A DNA stretch of 64,000 nucleotides from positions 310,001 to 374,000 of the forward strand of contig NZ_OCMZ01000002.1 in NCBI RefSeq assembly GCF_900215485.1, written 5' to 3'. The notes below the pieces were generated by a model. That model was not told the DNA's origin. It saw nothing but the letters and a program-made list of their open reading frames with translations, and did not search any database. Of the stretch, positions 10,545 through 20,230 are shown piece after piece (within the stretch, counting starts at the first letter, position 1; every line of letters starts with the position of its first letter). Source of the DNA: Nitrosovibrio sp. Nv4. GTDB lineage: Bacteria; Pseudomonadota; Gammaproteobacteria; Burkholderiales; Nitrosomonadaceae. The translations under genes and the position numbers were made by a program.

Positions 10545-11264
10545 ATGCTGCTCGCATCGGATTTGCCGGGGCGTATGGCTCCGCTCGATGCCGTTCTCCT
10601 AGTTTTCAATGAACCGGGTCGCCGCGCCTTGCCAACAACTCCCCCATCATTTAGCCAAAACCGCTTCCTGCAAGTTGTGCTGGCGGTTTATGCGCTGGTC
10701 TGGATTGCCACAGCGATCAATCCGCTCGATTGGCTGGTGTGGGTCTTGGAGAATATTCTCGTCGTTGTCCTCGTTGCTATCCTCGTGGCGACTTACCGGC
10801 GATTTTCTTTCTCGAATCTGTCCTACCTTCTGATCGTGCTTTATCTCAGCCTCCATGCCATCGGCACGAATACCGGCTATGCGCAGACACCCATTGGTTT
10901 TTGGCTAAAAGAGATGTTCGACTTGAACCGGAATCCGTACGATCGAATCATACATTTTACATTCGGGCTGTTGCTCGCATACCCATTTTACGAGCTAATA
11001 GTCCGTACGAGCAGCCTGCGTGGCTGGGTCGCGCACTGGTCACCAGTCAGCATAATCCTGGCAGCGAGCGCCGGTTTCGAAGTGATGGAATCGTTCATCG
11101 CAGAGATTGTTAGCCCCGGAACCGGCCCGGCCTGGCTTGGCGCGCAGGGGGACGAATGGGATATGCAATTCGACCTGGCTGCCGCACTGCTGGGTGCGCT
11201 TGCGGTAATGCCCTTTACGTATTGGGAAGAGCGGGTCGCCGCCAGACTCGGTGGGCCCCCATGA
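10545..11264 (+). CDS. DUF2238 (YjdF-like) integral membrane protein, copy 1
   Basis: 239 residues with about six transmembrane helices. DUF2238 features include the conserved loop GFWLKEMFDLNRNPYDRIIHFTFG with acidic and His residues, and a late GDEWDMQFDLAAALLGAL segment. The start is uncertain: compared with the next gene, the conserved part begins near SQNRFLQVVLAVYALVW, so an internal start is possible. It shares about a third to half of its residues with its neighbour and the two overlap by 4 nt, so they are a tandem duplication translated together. Function of the family is unknown. Confidence 0.85.
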   Translation: MLLASDLPGRMAPLDAVLLVFNEPGRRALPTTPPSFSQNRFLQVVLAVYALVWIATAINPLDWLVWVLENILVVVLVAILVATYRRFSFSNLSYLLIVLYLSLHAIGTNTGYAQTPIGFWLKEMFDLNRNPYDRIIHFTFGLLLAYPFYELIVRTSSLRGWVAHWSPVSIILAASAGFEVMESFIAEIVSPGTGPAWLGAQGDEWDMQFDLAAALLGALAVMPFTYWEERVAARLGGPP

Positions 11265-11881
11265 ATGGAAGACCTTTCCGGGAACGCAGGCTGCTCCATG
11301 TACTTTGCGCCTGCTATGCAATTGTATGGATCATCGCAGCGATTGATCCGGTGAAACGCAGCGATTGGCTGCTCGAAAATCTTCTGGTTTTCGCCTGCGT
11401 GCCGATGCTGATTTTCACCTATTGCCGGCTGCCGCTTTCGGATACTTCCTACATCCTCATTTTTTTCTTCCTCGTCATGCATACTGCGGGCGCACATTAT
11501 ACTTACGCAGAAGTACCGCTGGGTTACTGGCTAAAGGAAACGTTCGACATGCAGCGAAACCATTTTGACCGGATCGTCCATTTCATGTTTGGAGTTATGG
11601 CGTATCCGGTTCAGGAAGTATTCGTGCGCATCACAAAAGCACGCGGTATTTGGGTAATGCTTCTGCCGGCTGCAATAACAGTATCGTTCAGCGGATTTTT
11701 TGAAATCATCGAGGCGGTGATCGCAACACTAGTCAGTCCGGAGCTTGGCGCCGCGTACCTCGGGCTGCAAGGAGATGTTTGGGATGCGCAGAAGGACATG
11801 GGGCTTGCCGTGCTTGGGGCATTGCTGGCAGTGAGCCTTAAGCGCGGCCTGTTCAAGCCTGAAAACCTGGACGTGCGGTGA
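11261..11881 (+). CDS. DUF2238 (YjdF-like) integral membrane protein, copy 2
   Basis: 206 residues, start ATGA overlapping the stop of copy 1. It repeats the same topology and signatures: GYWLKETFDMQRNHFDRIVHF and the C-terminal LQGDVWDAQKDMGLAVLGALL. The His/Asp/Glu set in the two conserved loops is kept in both copies, which suggests a buried polar or metal site and selection on both. Possible heteromeric partner of copy 1. Function unknown. Confidence 0.87.
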   Translation: MNGRPFRERRLLHVLCACYAIVWIIAAIDPVKRSDWLLENLLVFACVPMLIFTYCRLPLSDTSYILIFFFLVMHTAGAHYTYAEVPLGYWLKETFDMQRNHFDRIVHFMFGVMAYPVQEVFVRITKARGIWVMLLPAAITVSFSGFFEIIEAVIATLVSPELGAAYLGLQGDVWDAQKDMGLAVLGALLAVSLKRGLFKPENLDVR

Positions 11882-11930: not shown

Positions 11931-12164
11931 TCACGAGCGGTCGCGAAGGTCTTTCACGCCCTTTTCCCCTGCACAATGATTACAGCAGAACATCACGCCG
12001 TTTTTCTCCAGACCATGCCCTATAATCCGCGCTCGGCAGTGCGCGCAGGTAGGTGCAAGCTTATTAATCGCACATTCGAAACTATCGAAGGTATAGGTTT
12101 TGCTTGCAGCGATCACCTGGAACGATTTGTCGTAGTCATTCCCGCACCCGTCACATTTTGGCAT
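11931..12164 (-). CDS. Small zinc-ribbon-like protein
   Basis: 77 residues with ordered metal-binding pairs: CDGCG (residues 4-8), an isolated Cys in FECAINK, CAHCRARIIGHG, and CCNHCAGEKG. The pattern CxxC...C...CxxC...CCxHC suggests two zinc sites, and YTFDSFECAINKLAP resembles TRASH/LIM-like treble-clef proteins. Cytoplasmic. It faces the DUF2238 pair convergently. No specific function known. Confidence 0.78.
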   Translation of the reverse strand: MPKCDGCGNDYDKSFQVIAASKTYTFDSFECAINKLAPTCAHCRARIIGHGLEKNGVMFCCNHCAGEKGVKDLRDRS

Positions 12165-12577: not shown

Positions 12578-12616
12578 TCATCGAAACGCCAGGGCATTGA
12601 CGGGTTCGCTGCATAA
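12458..12616 (+). CDS. Possible 52-residue Cys peptide, TTG start (speculative)
   Basis: Plus-strand frame opposite the end of the peptide operon. A strong GGAGGAG site lies 7 nt upstream of a TTG start, which overlaps the stop of an 18-codon frame (TTGA). The peptide contains a Thr/Cys segment, ACTTTTGTCGKIKDCH, reminiscent of peptide-natural-product cores. No homologue is recognised. It overlaps the 3' end of the opposite-strand peptide gene, so it may be chance. Confidence 0.25.
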   Translation: MKLFDSVTGHMPSAIPGLRSRACTTTTGTCGKIKDCHSLASSKRQGIDGFAA

Positions 12617-12874
12617 GATTACCGGGTAGCCAAAAAAATCCCTTTCGCATCTGCAGTTTTCCAGGGGATGCGTCTGGCGCGAGGTACAGAAAAACCTTCC
12701 TCGTGACGGCACATATCCGCAGCATGTCATTACCGGAAAAATATCGAACCGGAATTGCGCAATCTGACTCGGCGAAACCTGGGGCGAACTCGATCCGCCA
12801 TGACCGGTCTTCCCTCGGTAAACCCGCATGGACGGACCAAGCGAAGCTTCTGCGTTGAATTGTGGCATGTTCAT
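12578..12874 (-). CDS. Candidate RiPP-like precursor peptide B
   Basis: 98 residues. Start chosen at MNMPQFNAEASLGPSMRVY, 7 nt behind a GGAG in an AGGAGACAGGAA context. The N-terminus matches the neighbouring peptide (MPxFxAExxL motif), as expected of a shared leader, while the C-terminal half differs and holds six cysteines (MTCCGY, FFCTS, ENCRCE, ILCSE). It is the last gene of the minus-strand operon with a subtilisin and a PatG-domain protein. Precursor status is inferred from shared leader, size and neighbours; no modification enzyme such as YcaO is present here. It could instead be a small secreted or signalling protein. Confidence 0.6.
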   Translation of the reverse strand: MNMPQFNAEASLGPSMRVYRGKTGHGGSSSPQVSPSQIAQFRFDIFPVMTCCGYVPSRGRFFCTSRQTHPLENCRCERDFFGYPVILCSEPVNALAFR

Positions 12875-12953
12875 TTCCTGTCTCCTCATCCTCTCTTCAA
12901 AGTATACATACGCTAAAAAACCCGTTTCAATCCACAACGAAAGGTCGCTCGGG

Positions 12954-13250
12954 TTAGGCAGAACAGGGCCTCTGACTTCCGTCGGAGCATTGCCTGACAC
13001 CCACACAAGGACCACAAGTCGGACGTGGATTGCATTGACTGCGGCAGGCGGGACCACACTGAAACGGTGGAATACCTTCCTGAATGCACTCGCGGAAGCA
13101 TTCCACAAAGCAAGAGGGATTATCGGGGTCGAGTTGCGCGGGATGTACTTTTCTGCCAGTTTGGCGGGTCGTAGCTGTCATGTGATAGGGATTGATTGTC
13201 TTATAAAGTGCAACCTCAGCTGTAAATCCAGGCATGTTCGCGGTATTCAT
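12954..13250 (-). CDS. Candidate RiPP-like precursor peptide A (Cys-rich)
   Basis: 98 residues, with a near-perfect AGGAGG site 7 nt before the ATG. The N-terminus MNTANMPGFTAEVALYKTINP shares the MPxFxAExxL motif with peptide B. The second half is a proline/glycine-rich cysteine segment with ten Cys in about 52 residues (SCFVECFRECIQ, FQCGPACRSQC, PTCGPCVG, RQCSDGS, PCSA). The pattern suggests disulfides, thioethers or metal binding in the mature product. It starts 26 nt after the PatG-domain gene. Role as a substrate of the adjacent protease is inferred. Confidence 0.72.
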   Translation of the reverse strand: MNTANMPGFTAEVALYKTINPYHMTATTRQTGRKVHPAQLDPDNPSCFVECFRECIQEGIPPFQCGPACRSQCNPRPTCGPCVGVRQCSDGSQRPCSA

Positions 13251-13276
13251 TTTTGTACCTCCTCAGTTAATGAGAA

Positions 13277-14218
13277 TTAACGATCATAGTAAGGCGACAT
13301 CTTGGTAACCAGGAACGGAAATTCCTCGGTTACATCCACGCGGACAAAGAATTTCTCGATGAAATCGGTGTTGCGATTGGTGTAAGAGAGGATAACCTTG
13401 TAAATTTTGCGTGTGCTGCTCAATGATGAAGGGATAACCTCCACTCCCGTGAGCGAACAGTCGTCGCCATATTTTTCCGCCGTCTTTGCATAAATGGACG
13501 GATAACGCATGACCAGGTAGTTCAACGCACGGTGCTCGTCGGTCATCCCGGCGTTATCCGTCATTTGCATGATCCTGTCGAACAATTCCTCCGCAGCTGG
13601 ACCGAATTGCTCATCAGCGATCTTCTCCGGCTTGGGGATGGCTTTGATGAGCGCATCGCGGCCGAAAGAATAAATCTGGTCGAAGACGACAACAGGTACC
13701 ATCAAGCCGTTACACATTTCCGGCGGGGCAATAGGACCACGCAAACCGATGACGACATCAATGTCGTTGGGAGCCGGTGCGGGGCGGATGGCGTCCACCA
13801 GCATATCAATATCCCCTGGATCGCGCGGCTGAAGCAGGTAGGTTTCCAGGCCCTGTATGGTCATCACCCAGCATAGCTGGCGCACCAGGTAGCGGTTCTG
13901 ACGTTCGGATAAAACGGCATGGAAAGCCTGTTGATCAGTCTTCCCCGCAGTATCCGTCCGGCCTGTTGCTTGAACAAATTCCTTTTCCGCAGCCAGATTC
14001 GGGAAACGCGCTTCAACCCGGCCGATAGCATAGACATATGAGATCATCCCGATATCATTGGGACTCATGCCTGCCGCACCGCTGCAACCACAGGTTCCGT
14101 CGCCCGTTTGCGGTGAGATCGTAGCGTTTGAACGAACCTCAGGCGCAGCAAAGCGCTCATTACTCTCATTAACCGGTTGATCCATCTGCTGTTCCATTGT
14201 TTCAGCTTGTTCATTCAT
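13277..14218 (-). CDS. Stand-alone PatG C-terminal-domain protein (cyanobactin-maturation related)
   Basis: 313 residues. From about residue 57 it matches the C-terminal domain of PatG-type cyanobactin maturation proteases: YVYAIGRVEARFPNLAAEKE, VLSERQNRYLVRQLCWVMTI, VVIGLRGPIAPPEMCNGLMV, EELFDRIMQMTDNAG and a final FFVRVDVTEEFPFLVTKMSP. In cyanobacteria this domain is fused behind a subtilisin; here it is separate and the subtilisin is two genes upstream, so the enzyme appears split. The N-terminal ~55 residues are low-complexity with a TCGCSGAAG stretch that itself looks peptide-like. Function of the domain is unknown; in this operon it probably helps recognise or process the peptides. Confidence 0.87.
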   Translation of the reverse strand: MNEQAETMEQQMDQPVNESNERFAAPEVRSNATISPQTGDGTCGCSGAAGMSPNDIGMISYVYAIGRVEARFPNLAAEKEFVQATGRTDTAGKTDQQAFHAVLSERQNRYLVRQLCWVMTIQGLETYLLQPRDPGDIDMLVDAIRPAPAPNDIDVVIGLRGPIAPPEMCNGLMVPVVVFDQIYSFGRDALIKAIPKPEKIADEQFGPAAEELFDRIMQMTDNAGMTDEHRALNYLVMRYPSIYAKTAEKYGDDCSLTGVEVIPSSLSSTRKIYKVILSYTNRNTDFIEKFFVRVDVTEEFPFLVTKMSPYYDR

Positions 14219-14286
14219 ATTTTTCTCCTCCTTGGGTAGACGTTAACATAACCATAAACTCGACAATCCGGATTCACGAGCTGCGC

Positions 14287-14505
14287 TTATTTTGATCGTC
14301 GATTAATGAAAACCAGCCAGCGGTCAAGCGCAGCTGCTCGGCGTGCACAGCCTCGGCAGGGCTGTATCCCAAAAAAGGAGGTCGCTCGTTTAACCGCATC
14401 GCCAAGCCCGATCTCCTCATCGGCAATAAAGCCAGGTAGACGGACACGATGGTGCAAATGCTCTGCTTTGTCAGGAGAACCATTTTTTTCGTTTGTTTTT
14501 GTCAT
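14287..14505 (-). CDS. Small CxxC protein of the PatG-like operon
   Basis: 72 residues from MTKTNEKNGSPD, with GGAG 9 nt upstream. Conserved-looking core: LPGFIADEEIGLGDAVKRAT followed by FFGIQPCRGCARRAAALDRW, with one CxxC pair. Proteins with this GLGD...PCxGC...RAxxLxRW pattern occur as small open frames in various bacteria, with no assigned function. Placed between protease and PatG-domain genes, it may be a carrier, redox or leader-binding partner; this is inference. Confidence 0.72.
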   Translation of the reverse strand: MTKTNEKNGSPDKAEHLHHRVRLPGFIADEEIGLGDAVKRATSFFGIQPCRGCARRAAALDRWLVFINRRSK

Positions 14506-14518
14506 GCTATTTATCTCC

Positions 14519-15385
14519 TCACATGCCTGCAATCAGGATTTGGTAGGCCGCCGCCGCATCCAGCAGAGGCGGAACTATCGAGGCTCTCCGCCGCATAGAC
14601 GCTTTTGTAACAGCGAGTTTGATTTGCGCAGCCGTTGCAGCGGGGAATTCTGACCACAGCAGTGCAATGGCACCCGTCACAAACGGTACGGCAACGCTCG
14701 TGCCGCCGAGCGTGAGCGTTTGGCCGGCGGGGCCCAAGCTGGTGATATTGTCGCCGGGTGCGCTCAAACCTCGCATACCAATCGAACCACCCAGATTCGA
14801 TTCGTTTATTGGTCGGGCGCGCAGATCGCAGGCGACCACCGGGATGACCCAGGGATGACGGGTAATGGCTGAACTTCCCAGAGTGCCCTGATTGCCTGCT
14901 GCCGCGACTATCATCACTCCGCGTCTGAGGGCTTGGTTGAACGCATCCTCCAGTGCGTGTTCTCCTTTGGTGGAAGGTTGAGAAAGGGCAAGGCTCAGGT
15001 TGATTACTCGCGCGCCTGCGTTGATACATTCAAGGACGGCCGCGGCCAGTTCCTGTGGCGTTGCATTTGGCATACGCTCGCGCCCAAAAGTTTTCTCGCT
15101 AAAAATGGGACGCACAAGGAGGGTACAGTCGGGGCAAATGGCAGGCGCCCTCGAATTCCGCTTCCCGGATAGGATGCCCGCTATAAAGGTTCCGTGCAGG
15201 CATGCCGAACTGTCAGTTTGCGTGCAGGTGGCTGCGTTTTGTCCGGGAATCTCCTGGAGGCCCTCCCCTGCCAGACCGGCATGTTGAGTGAGAACGGGTC
15301 CGTCGATGAGTCCGATCCTCACATCAGGATTGCCTCTGCTGCGTTCCATCAACGCTGTGAGCTTGACTAATTCGGTAGGGAGCAT
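14519..15385 (-). CDS. PatA/PatG-like subtilisin-family serine protease
   Basis: 288 residues, close to a bare S8 catalytic domain. Triad: Asp28 in IGLIDGPVL (the DGPV form is typical of PatA/PatG proteases), His64 in CLHGTFIAGIL, Ser230 in GGTSVAVPFVTG, with the oxyanion Asn in AAAGNQG. No signal peptide, so cytoplasmic action is expected. Cys54/Cys62 and ICPDC near 86-90 could form extra bonds or bind metal. In cyanobactin pathways PatA cleaves the leader and PatG cyclises; here there is a single protease plus a separate PatG C-terminal domain. First gene of the operon ending with the two Cys peptides. A hairpin sits just before the start codon. Confidence 0.9.
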   Translation of the reverse strand: MLPTELVKLTALMERSRGNPDVRIGLIDGPVLTQHAGLAGEGLQEIPGQNAATCTQTDSSACLHGTFIAGILSGKRNSRAPAICPDCTLLVRPIFSEKTFGRERMPNATPQELAAAVLECINAGARVINLSLALSQPSTKGEHALEDAFNQALRRGVMIVAAAGNQGTLGSSAITRHPWVIPVVACDLRARPINESNLGGSIGMRGLSAPGDNITSLGPAGQTLTLGGTSVAVPFVTGAIALLWSEFPAATAAQIKLAVTKASMRRRASIVPPLLDAAAAYQILIAGM

Positions 15386-15615: not shown

Positions 15616-15912
15616 ATGACCTACCTAAAACCTGTTCTCACTGCGGCAATACTCGCCTTTGCGCTTGCCGGCTGCGAGTCCAAGCAAGAAAACCAACGGG
15701 AAGAGGCGTTGGAAAAGAAAGCCGATACAATGGAACAAAAAGCGGATGTGGTACGTGAGCGAGGAGAAGCAGCAGCAGACCTGGCTGAAAAGAAAGACCC
15801 GGGGATGGATACTAGTGCAACCGACCGCGCCGCTGAGGCTGCCCGCGAAACGTCTGAAAGGAGCGCGGATCAGTTGGAGGAGTACGCGGATCGGACGCGT
15901 GAGAAAAAATAA
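15616..15912 (+). CDS. Small charged lipoprotein, tandem copy 1
   Basis: 98 residues. Start has a GGAGG site. Signal MTYLKPVLTAAILAFA with lipobox LAGC (Cys about residue 19), then a Glu/Lys/Ala-rich, probably helical, periplasmic part with heptad-like repeats of KADxxxQKADVxRExGEA. It is almost repeated by the next gene in the same order and length. Osmotic or envelope stress roles are common for such lipoproteins; none is established here. Confidence 0.82.
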   Translation: MTYLKPVLTAAILAFALAGCESKQENQREEALEKKADTMEQKADVVRERGEAAADLAEKKDPGMDTSATDRAAEAARETSERSADQLEEYADRTREKK

Positions 15913-16095: not shown

Positions 16096-16392
16096 ATGAA
16101 CAATCTGAAACCTGTTCTCATCGCGGCAATACTCACCTTTGCGCTTGTCGGCTGCGAGTCCAAGCAAGAAAACCAGCGGGAGCAAGCGGTCGAGAAGAAA
16201 GCCGATAAACTGGAACAAAAAGCGGATGTGACACGCGAGCAGGGAGAAGCAACAGCGGACCGGATTGAAAAGCAAGACCCCGGTATGGATACTCACACTA
16301 CCGACCGTACCGCTGATGCAGCTCGCGAAGCAGCGGAGAAGCGTGCAGATCAGATGGAAGAGCAGGCGGCTCGCCTGCGTGAACAAAAATAA
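16096..16392 (+). CDS. Small charged lipoprotein, tandem copy 2
   Basis: 98 residues, same length and design as the upstream copy: signal MNNLKPVLIAAILTFALVG with lipobox LVGC, then ESKQENQREQAVEKKADKLE and a charged helical tail rich in Ala/Glu/Lys (AAREAAEKRADQMEEQAARL). The copies match over most of their length, including silent-looking nucleotide identity around CTGTTCTCA...GCGGCAATACTC, indicating a fairly recent duplication. They are separated by 183 nt, which may carry a second promoter. Confidence 0.83.
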   Translation: MNNLKPVLIAAILTFALVGCESKQENQREQAVEKKADKLEQKADVTREQGEATADRIEKQDPGMDTHTTDRTADAAREAAEKRADQMEEQAARLREQK

Positions 16393-18854: not shown

Positions 18855-19757
18855 TCAAGTTTGCAGTTCTGTCAGATCGGAAACCGTGTCGTACTCGTAG
18901 TATCGTCGGTAGTCGACCATATCGCCAGGCGTGACAGTGTCCTCGTAAATGCTGTAAAGCGCGTCGTCTACCCGATGAAACTGGAGTGTATCCGGCGCGC
19001 TCATATCGGGTAAGTACGGTGAGTCAGGGTGCCTCTCCTGCCAGGCCGCCCAGATCCGATCCACATTGCAATGATGCAGGAAGAATACCGGATCGTTCGG
19101 CGATGATGATAACGACATGTCTCCCCCTACCCATACATGTACGCTATTGTGAATGCGCTCATTTCCGATCCAGCCTTCGAGAAGGTTGCGCACGCCCCCT
19201 GGCGAAGATGAGCTAAACGGTGAGGTGTCATAAGCCGCCTGGTCGCGGATGACCATTCGTACTCCGGTTCGGGTAGGAAGCCTGCCCGCATCGCCAAGGG
19301 CACGTTGCAGCGTTCGATCCGTTCGTCTCAAGTCACCTGTCCTCAGGCTCATTTCCAGACGAACCCGCCAATCCGAGCCGGCAAATTGTCCGAGATTGGC
19401 ATTGCTCCATATCGGTGACGTGACAGGTTCGGGAAGTTCCGCGTCGGCGTTCCAATCCCAGTATGGAATCCTGAACTCAATGTCGTCTACTGCCTGCCGC
19501 AGTAATCCTTCGAGAGTGATAAGGAAATATCGGTGCCAGGGCAAAAACGACGGGCCGGAGTGTGCGGCGTTGCGGTCGCTTTGAGTGGGCGGGGTCATCA
19601 GCATCATCGACTGGTGGTGCCAGAAAACGAACGAGTCGTAGATCGACAATCCGTCCTGGCCCGGCCACGGAAACTGCGCGGGGTCTTTAAGCCTTCTTAC
19701 CCCATCGATGTACTTCTGAGCAGCGTCGGCGTCAGTGAGGAAGTTGCGGCGAATCAT
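18855..19757 (-). CDS. Tyrosinase-type copper oxidase (type-3 dicopper)
   Basis: 300-residue polyphenol-oxidase family protein that uses two coupled coppers to oxidise phenols with O2. CuA ligands: His47/48 in FWHHQSM, His66 in AAHSG and His75 in FLPWHRYF. CuB ligands: His203 and His207 in RIHNSVHVW and His228/229 in DPVFFLHHCNVDRIW. The residues around HHC (NVDRIW) are a strong family signature. No signal peptide is visible on this protein; the partner gene just upstream, overlapping by 4 nt, resembles the copper-donating caddie. Natural substrate unknown. Confidence 0.93.
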   Translation of the reverse strand: MIRRNFLTDADAAQKYIDGVRRLKDPAQFPWPGQDGLSIYDSFVFWHHQSMMLMTPPTQSDRNAAHSGPSFLPWHRYFLITLEGLLRQAVDDIEFRIPYWDWNADAELPEPVTSPIWSNANLGQFAGSDWRVRLEMSLRTGDLRRTDRTLQRALGDAGRLPTRTGVRMVIRDQAAYDTSPFSSSSPGGVRNLLEGWIGNERIHNSVHVWVGGDMSLSSSPNDPVFFLHHCNVDRIWAAWQERHPDSPYLPDMSAPDTLQFHRVDDALYSIYEDTVTPGDMVDYRRYYEYDTVSDLTELQT

Positions 19758-20230
19758 TGGTTACCTCCCCCGTGACTATGATCACGGTCGTGGCCCTGAT
19801 CGGGATGTGAATCAGATTCGGAAAACGCATCCGGGTAAGCGTCCATAACCTGTTTCATCAAATCCACGGCGGAAGCATAAGTTACGAATGGCGTTGCATG
19901 CGTGAAAACCTGCCCATCCTCATCAACGGACAGGTGCATATCCGCCGGTTTGCCATCGACCTCGACGCGATAGGTGGTGATAATCTTGATAGTATGTCCA
20001 TTATGCGTGAGCTCGCGCACGCTCGTGGCCTCGTGCTTGCCGTGGGGTGCAAGATAGGTTGGGAATTTTTTCTTCACCCAGTCCGGGTGGGACTGTGCGC
20101 CTTCCGTTGGCGAGTAGTTTTCTAAAACAGAAGTGTCCGGATTACCGGTCGAGTCACTTGGCTTTCGGACCGGCTTCGGCTCCTTGCCCTTTCCCGTGTG
20201 TCCCTTGGGGGGAGCCTTCTTTTTTTCCAT
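19754..20230 (-). CDS. Tyrosinase helper (caddie, MelC1-like) protein
   Basis: 158 residues. The central part THNGHTIKIITTYRVEVDG followed by KPADMHLSVDEDGQVFTHAT resembles MelC1/caddie domains that hold tyrosinase in an assembly state and donate copper. The C-terminus is His/Asp-rich (DSHPDQGHDRDHSHGGGNQ), fitting copper binding; the N-terminus is a Lys/Pro-rich linker. Its stop overlaps the tyrosinase start (ATGA), so the two are made in a coupled way. Assignment rests on pattern and context, not on strong similarity. Confidence 0.78.
   Translation of the reverse strand: MEKKKAPPKGHTGKGKEPKPVRKPSDSTGNPDTSVLENYSPTEGAQSHPDWVKKKFPTYLAPHGKHEATSVRELTHNGHTIKIITTYRVEVDGKPADMHLSVDEDGQVFTHATPFVTYASAVDLMKQVMDAYPDAFSESDSHPDQGHDRDHSHGGGNQ

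Follow-up and report, generated by a model that had tools for sequence, protein, structure and literature searches.

A putative leader-guided maturation cassette for Cys-rich peptides, with a PatA-like protease and a free-standing PatG domain, in bacteria and archaea

The analysed window, a 64,000-nucleotide stretch of the genome of Nitrosovibrio sp. Nv4 (contig NZ_OCMZ01000002.1, positions 310,001 to 374,000), contains a cassette of five reading frames on the minus strand, read from 15385 to 12578, that encode a PatA-like subtilase, a small protein with a CxxC motif, a free-standing protein with the PatG domain of unknown function (DUF) and two Cys-rich peptides. The most probable reading (a probability of roughly 0.6) is that the five genes represent a leader-guided peptide-maturation cassette together with two of its substrates, in which members of a new precursor family would lose their leader in trans, the PatG domain and the CxxC protein serving as helpers. 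Many different Cys-rich peptides appear to lose one common leader through a small cassette in an ammonia-oxidising bacterium. All five frames were located and translated on the one strand where a preliminary description, made from the letters of the DNA, had placed them. The MPxFxAExxL N-terminus that it reported for the two peptides of 98 amino acids (aa) is common to both, and strong ribosome sites (GAGGAGGT and GAGGAG) were confirmed upstream of both. Strong Shine-Dalgarno motifs precede four out of the five starts, the exception being the protease start, and the intergenic gaps down the cassette are 13, 68, 26 and 79 bp. The genome (3.27 Mb, 98.8% complete) contains a single PatG_C match.

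A scan of genome contigs identified 42 further loci (L002-L043), which makes 43 with the copy in the window, and an iterated leader profile was used to find precursor frames around the PatG-domain genes. Homologues of the peptides beside PatG-domain genes elsewhere, on which the preliminary description had staked its proposal, were present in 40 out of 43 loci with a total of 126 peptide frames, some of which may be spurious or decayed. The three loci without a leader peptide are L033, L034 and L042. The contigs of L033 and L034 end 169 and 31 bases past the matched domain; the L034 genome contains three leader peptides on another contig and the L033 genome none by the leader profile A1. A motif pattern anchored 123 of the 126 frames (three were not anchored), and the leader consensus of these 123 peptides is PGFTAExSLY...Y (P 96%, G 78%, F 96%, A 93%, E 80%, S 78%, L 73%, and Y at +15 78%). 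A second motif, V/I-x-P-Q/A/S, is present in 89 out of 123 peptides and lies at 28-30 residues in 65 of these 89. Cys is rare before this motif (15/3367 residues, 0.45%) and frequent after it (667/5205, 12.8%) in the 89 motif-bearing peptides. A related boundary pattern at 26-32 residues was found in 86 of the 123 peptides compared with a mean of 3.95 and a maximum of 10 in 200 shuffles. The motif at a set distance suggests a predicted site of leader removal.

The two parts of the peptides differ in conservation. Within loci, the mean identity is 49% for the leaders and 25% for the cores, with the leader being higher in 154 out of 166 pairs, and the median peptide contains six Cys. This architecture, a ribosomal precursor with a conserved leader and a variable core in several copies per cluster, agrees with that of a ribosomally synthesized and post-translationally modified peptide (RiPP) in the broad sense. 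A strict Shine-Dalgarno motif precedes 99 out of 120 peptide starts in these loci compared with 6.3% of 3379 background ATGs. The ratio of nonsynonymous to synonymous substitutions was <0.35 in 27 of the 33 cross-locus peptide pairs with a defined ratio, among the 40 of 46 pairs listed (seven of the 40 are undefined and the pairs are not independent); by this codon comparison, the protein sequence of the peptides is under constraint. As far as each was scanned, the window peptides and 33 leaders had no match in Pfam or NCBIfam. Among ten longer precursors, one, a 310-aa leader protein (L031:8095-9024, minus strand), contains STIG1-like Cys repeats (Pfam 2.8e-6); judged by eye, others of the long precursors resemble granulins.

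Genomic co-occurrence, proposed earlier as a check, was followed in three genome surveys, in which the leader peptides track the free-standing PatG domain genome by genome: they are present in 19 out of 19 genomes with the free-standing domain and in neither of two genomes with a fused PatA, the informative part of these surveys being the absences and genome G606. Among 125 genomes of the same family, PatG_C was found in 16 (in open frames of 316-444 aa, hence judged free-standing) and leader peptides in 17, and all 16 overlap; with 66 matches in these 17 genomes, the leader is a handle for finding many small genes. The pattern within the genus is patchy, with 13 of the 23 listed genomes carrying both, one the peptide only and nine neither. 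In the Edaphobacter family (150 genomes), three genomes carry the free-standing domain and exactly those three carry leader peptides. Another genome of this family, with a fused PatA-type protein, carries none. The phylum-wide survey (398 genomes) found both in the Nitrosovibrio genome itself and a fused PatA-type protein without leaders in one other genome.

Almost half of the precursors (30 out of 65) in the 16 genomes are unlinked to the cassette, where unlinked means >5 kb away or on another contig and many of the assemblies are drafts. Precursors so far from the cassette are hard to find by cluster-based mining. Two of the four precursors in the Nitrosovibrio genome are unlinked. One unlinked precursor type has the same setting in three genomes, between frames that resemble dapE and prmB. 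An unlinked precursor of the Nitrosovibrio genome has as its neighbour a gene for a secreted metallopeptidase-like protein (HEFSH) that spans two overlapping frames (L062:196-995, minus strand).

The protease displays the subtilase motifs IDGPV, HGT and GTSVA with the triad D28/H64/S230 and matches Peptidase_S8 in Pfam (1.2e-23). Three NCBIfam profiles matched below their cut-offs: the PatA/PatG protease (8.2e-32, curated cut-off of 421 bits), the mycosin TIGR03921 (5.9e-37) and QhpE (NF049966, 6.5e-17). The score for the type VII secretion system mycosin equivalog was missed (127.6 bits vs. a cut-off of 278.75; an ESX context was not searched for). Among solved structures, PatA-type proteases are closest (5.9e-32), with 4h6w, an "N-terminal cyanobactin protease", at 1.6e-29 and PatG-type proteases at 1e-12. 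By these scores, the protease resembles the stand-alone N-terminal type of cyanobactin protease (PatA) more closely than PatG. The preliminary description was right about a 288-residue subtilisin with the DGPV motif of PatA/PatG and about the protease and the domain being separate genes; its reading of the protease as a piece of a split PatG did not hold, and the split form is a separate family instead of a decayed cyanobactin cluster. No signal peptide was seen by eye (no predictor was run). The spacing between the catalytic D and H is 36 in 38 out of 39 relatives and 34 in one, leaving out three of the 42 proteases (L001, L029, and L039) that lacked a motif in the aligned piece. The protease gene lies within 1.1 kb of the PatG-domain gene on the same strand in 42 out of 43 loci (L037 is cut by the contig end), and the two are separate reading frames in all 42 loci that have both genes. 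The protease frame of L029 appears interrupted.

The stand-alone PatG C-terminal-domain protein and the 72-residue CxxC protein stood up as first described: the former contains PatG_D and PatG_C, and the latter carries CRGC in the window copy and CGGC in 12 out of 15 aligned members. None of 15 members of the CxxC protein had a Pfam match and its structural model is weak. The PatG-domain protein is predicted to begin with a low-confidence tail (residues 1-57) bearing ISPQ...CGC, with the DUF fold after it. Across the loci the tails show a V/I-x-P-Q motif followed by C-x-C or C-x-x-C, which resembles the boundary motif of the precursors (4/43 tails were skipped by the anchor pattern). An alignment of 38 sequences shows 38 polar residues of the domain to be conserved in 97% or more of them. 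According to Mann et al. (2014, PMC4259220), the PatG/PatA DUF is kept in every cyanobactin pathway characterised up to that time, its structure gave no clue to its role, and no role is assigned there. A later assignment was not met in the open-access literature searched.

Combined, these features suggest how the cassette might work. The nearly Cys-free leader would bring the precursors to the machinery, where the PatG-domain protein, the protease or both would recognize it. The PatA-like subtilase, probably cytoplasmic, would cut at V-x-P-Q/A/S about 30 residues on, and a hypervariable Cys-rich peptide would be freed that probably folds with disulphides or binds metal. The free-standing PatG domain would most likely be a substrate-recognition or activating partner of the protease, and its tail, with the boundary-like motif, may itself be cut or serve as a pseudosubstrate. 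The CxxC protein would be a third, less constant helper; its LPGF resembles the PGF of the leader, and it could act at the site that the leader uses, as a competitor or as an aid. The cassette would act in trans on the unlinked precursors, including the two in the Nitrosovibrio genome. What the sequences show is the conserved set of genes, the leader and core architecture of the peptides, the co-occurrence, the unlinked precursors and the PatG-DUF fold; from these, cleavage and its position, recognition by the domain, the action in trans, a redox or metal role for the cysteines and the function of the product are inferred.

Several observations weigh against this reading. The second motif is absent, by the pattern used, from 34 out of 123 peptides, and the CxxC protein, present in 32 of the 43 loci, was not found in 11. 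In genome G095, a leader peptide lies close to frames that by eye look like an integrase and a metalloprotease, and no PatG-domain match was obtained even at E 10. A Streptomyces xanthophaeus plasmid (L134:5346-6768) has the PatG domain and the CxxC protein, with no protease match or leader peptide within the 12.8 kb stretch. A1 was built partly from genomes that were later scanned, which makes the positive matches partly a matter of construction. It matches 19 out of 24 named domain-carrying genomes and misses five: three archaea, Ferruginibacter and the L033 genome. The archaeal and Ferruginibacter peptides are diverged or by-eye finds and none is known from the L033 genome. No exporter was recognised by eye among the gene clusters common to at least three loci. 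Finally, Mann et al. (2014, PMC4259220) saw no binding of PatG-DUF to the patellamide precursor by nuclear magnetic resonance, so that an interaction of the domain with the leader cannot be taken for granted.

Among the alternatives, the Cys-rich core might be bonded before leader removal, either by an enzyme encoded elsewhere or by the PatG-domain protein itself, which would make the products modified RiPPs. In two Nitrosocosmicus-type loci the plus-strand gene run that holds the cassette also includes a radical S-adenosylmethionine (SAM) gene and a second leader peptide, and the near-invariant polar residues of the domain are perhaps beyond the need of a scaffold. However, no modifying enzyme was seen in the gene clusters common to at least three bacterial loci (flanks of up to 6 kb), and the radical SAM protein of Brocadia resembles a haem-biosynthesis enzyme. 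We regard such modification as unlikely, though worth serious weight.

The mature peptides might instead be a cytoplasmic, metallothionein-like metal or redox buffer that the cassette merely activates. The richness of the cores in Cys, the Cys motifs in the helper protein and the PatG-domain tail, and the lack of a secretion signal by eye and of a recognised common exporter agree with this, as does the use of copper enzymes by many carriers that oxidise ammonia or methane. It is rendered improbable by cores that seem too diverse for one metal site and by the many carriers that are Acidobacteria, rhizobia or Streptomyces.

A true cyanobactin-like system, in which the subtilase also macrocyclises or a heterocyclase joins from elsewhere to give small azol(in)e macrocycles, would explain why the cassette has the same protease family and the same DUF fold as PatA/PatG (PF18047/PF18065; PDB 4uvq, 4h6w, and 3zxx/4h6v of PatA), both of which are cyanobactin hallmarks, and annotated fused PatA/PatG proteins occur on cyanobacterial plasmids. 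Several fused PatA/PatG proteins also carry V/I-x-P and/or Cys motifs in the linker ahead of the DUF (the linker was obtained for five of six fused plasmid proteins tried). Unlike in cyanobactins, the protease and the DUF of the cassette are separate genes, with the CxxC protein mostly between them, and the leader is a different one with Cys-rich cores. The absence of an adjacent YcaO gene, noted earlier, holds genome-wide: a search for the YcaO heterocyclase (PatD) gave no match in the Nitrosovibrio genome and matched 5 out of 14 controls. There is no common C-terminal follower, as no 3-mer from the final 12 residues is shared by more than 7 of 123 peptides, compared with 92 of 123 for the leader PGF (the peptides had been picked by their leader). 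The D-H spacing leaves no room for the extra macrocyclase segment of PatG, with the reservation that the control pattern missed the PatG-type protein of L137; the spacing and the missing follower make simple hydrolysis likelier than macrocyclisation. In addition, leader peptides were not matched in the two genomes with a fused PatA. By these comparisons, two cyanobactin hallmarks are present (PatA-type protease and PatG DUF) and three are missing (YcaO, follower, and fusion). The cassette is therefore not classed as a cyanobactin pathway, a reading we consider very improbable, though its action probably resembles the PatA step in such a pathway.

Least probable of all is an inhibitor family whose N-terminus stays on and docks the peptides to a protease-PatG complex that they regulate or inhibit, since a shared leader on unlike, often unlinked paralogous cores fits substrates better than inhibitors of one protease, even if Cys-rich folds often inhibit proteases and a similar motif occurs in the tail of the PatG domain itself.

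The trans-acting arrangement of the favoured leader-removal cassette resembles that of the prochlorosins. In that system one maturation locus (ProcM) serves many precursors, many of them unlinked, with a common leader and hypervariable Cys-containing cores. Prochlorosins centre on a lanthipeptide synthetase, whereas the cassette centres on a protease and has a different leader. The S8 fold is shared with the mycosins and with QhpE, a subtilisin-like protease linked with a Cys-rich crosslinked subunit; neither is known to travel with the PatG DUF or this leader family. No description of the system was found in the open-access literature (preprints on bioRxiv and most subscription papers were outside the scope, so one may exist).

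The carriers include Nitrosospira, Nitrosomonas, Nitrotoga, Methylobacter, Acidobacteria, Nitrospira, Brocadia, Methanoperedens, Ferruginibacter and Nitrosocosmicus, and span methanotrophs, Bacteroidota and archaea too. Plasmid records add Mesorhizobium, Sinorhizobium, two Streptomyces and a distant Photobacterium match. The nearest relatives of the PatG-domain protein are from Nitrosovibrio and Nitrosospira; identity to the window copy is 72-73% in two Acidobacteria and 49-54% in Nitrosocosmicus-type archaea. In the tree, these two acidobacterial rows fall within a starred set of 18 mostly proteobacterial rows, and the Pseudomonadota require at least two changes forced by starred branches, a pattern that suggests transfer without proving it. 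On one Streptomyces plasmid the cassette adjoins a Tn3 transposase and a recombinase. In one relative there is a further PatG_C match, which is partial and covers positions 3-65 of 115 (L059, G106:C1:739351-739539). The archaeal version (L040:2112-6746 and L041:1-4488) runs on one strand as PatG-domain gene, protease, leader peptide (PGFVGE...LLPQ), a 128-130-aa protein, radical SAM gene and second leader peptide, the first of these leader peptides having been picked by eye and pattern.

The PatG domain is here a separate gene beside one protease and a simple precursor family. Being deletable and having its own substrates, it makes the role of this orphan domain directly testable in an assay with or without the domain. 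If the favoured reading is true, the peptide-maturation system spans nitrifiers, methanotrophs, Acidobacteria and ammonia-oxidising archaea. A wider proposal is offered tentatively, with the odds somewhat against it: the peptides may form a ribosomal Cys-rich class not described before, which has spread horizontally among bacteria and archaea. Three proteins would together mature them in trans, with the orphan PatG domain as leader receptor and protease activator and the V-x-P-Q...C-x-C tail as a built-in pseudosubstrate; the cyanobactin PatA/PatG would then be a fused form of this machine, in which a domain takes the part of the receptor.

Table 1. Elements of the cassette and their positions in the window.
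Feature	Position	Strand	Remarks
PatA-like S8 subtilase, 288 aa	14519..15385	-	presumed leader peptidase
CxxC helper, 72 aa	14287..14505	-	LPGF....GLGD and CRGC
Free-standing PatG_D+PatG_C (PatG DUF) protein, 313 aa	13277..14218	-	predicted DUF fold
ISPQT boundary-like motif, tail of the PatG-domain protein, residues 34-38	14105..14119	-	precedes CGC (residues 43-45)
Precursor peptide 1, 98 aa	12954..13250	-	leader MPGFTAEVALYK...Y, boundary motif VHPA, Cys-rich core
Precursor peptide 2, 98 aa	12578..12874	-	leader MPQFNAEASLG...Y, boundary motif VSPS, Cys-rich core

In Gloeothece (L137:2087-7233), VTPS occurs in the linker ahead of the DUF in the PatA- and PatG-type proteins; upstream of these, a small frame has GVTPS ahead of a Cys-rich end. 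On two Streptomyces plasmids (L138:2761-7304 and L139:2764-6780), a gene that fuses protease and DUF precedes runs of small frames, several of which contain GVEA/GLEA motifs, possibly an actinobacterial cyanobactin-like family.

In the window, two tandem, near-alike small lipoprotein-like genes (by eye; 15616-15912 and 16096-16392, plus strand) lie directly upstream of the cassette. Downstream is a 77-aa Cys-rich protein (11931-12164, minus strand; zf-FCS and metallothionein scores below cut-off). The window also has a tandem pair of similar membrane proteins, by eye probably a duplication (10545-11264 and 11261-11881, plus strand). A tyrosinase gene (18855-19757, minus strand; Pfam 1.5e-42) has a 158-aa protein without a Pfam match just upstream (19754-20230, minus strand), and a tyrosinase-like gene also occurs near the archaeal cassette L041.

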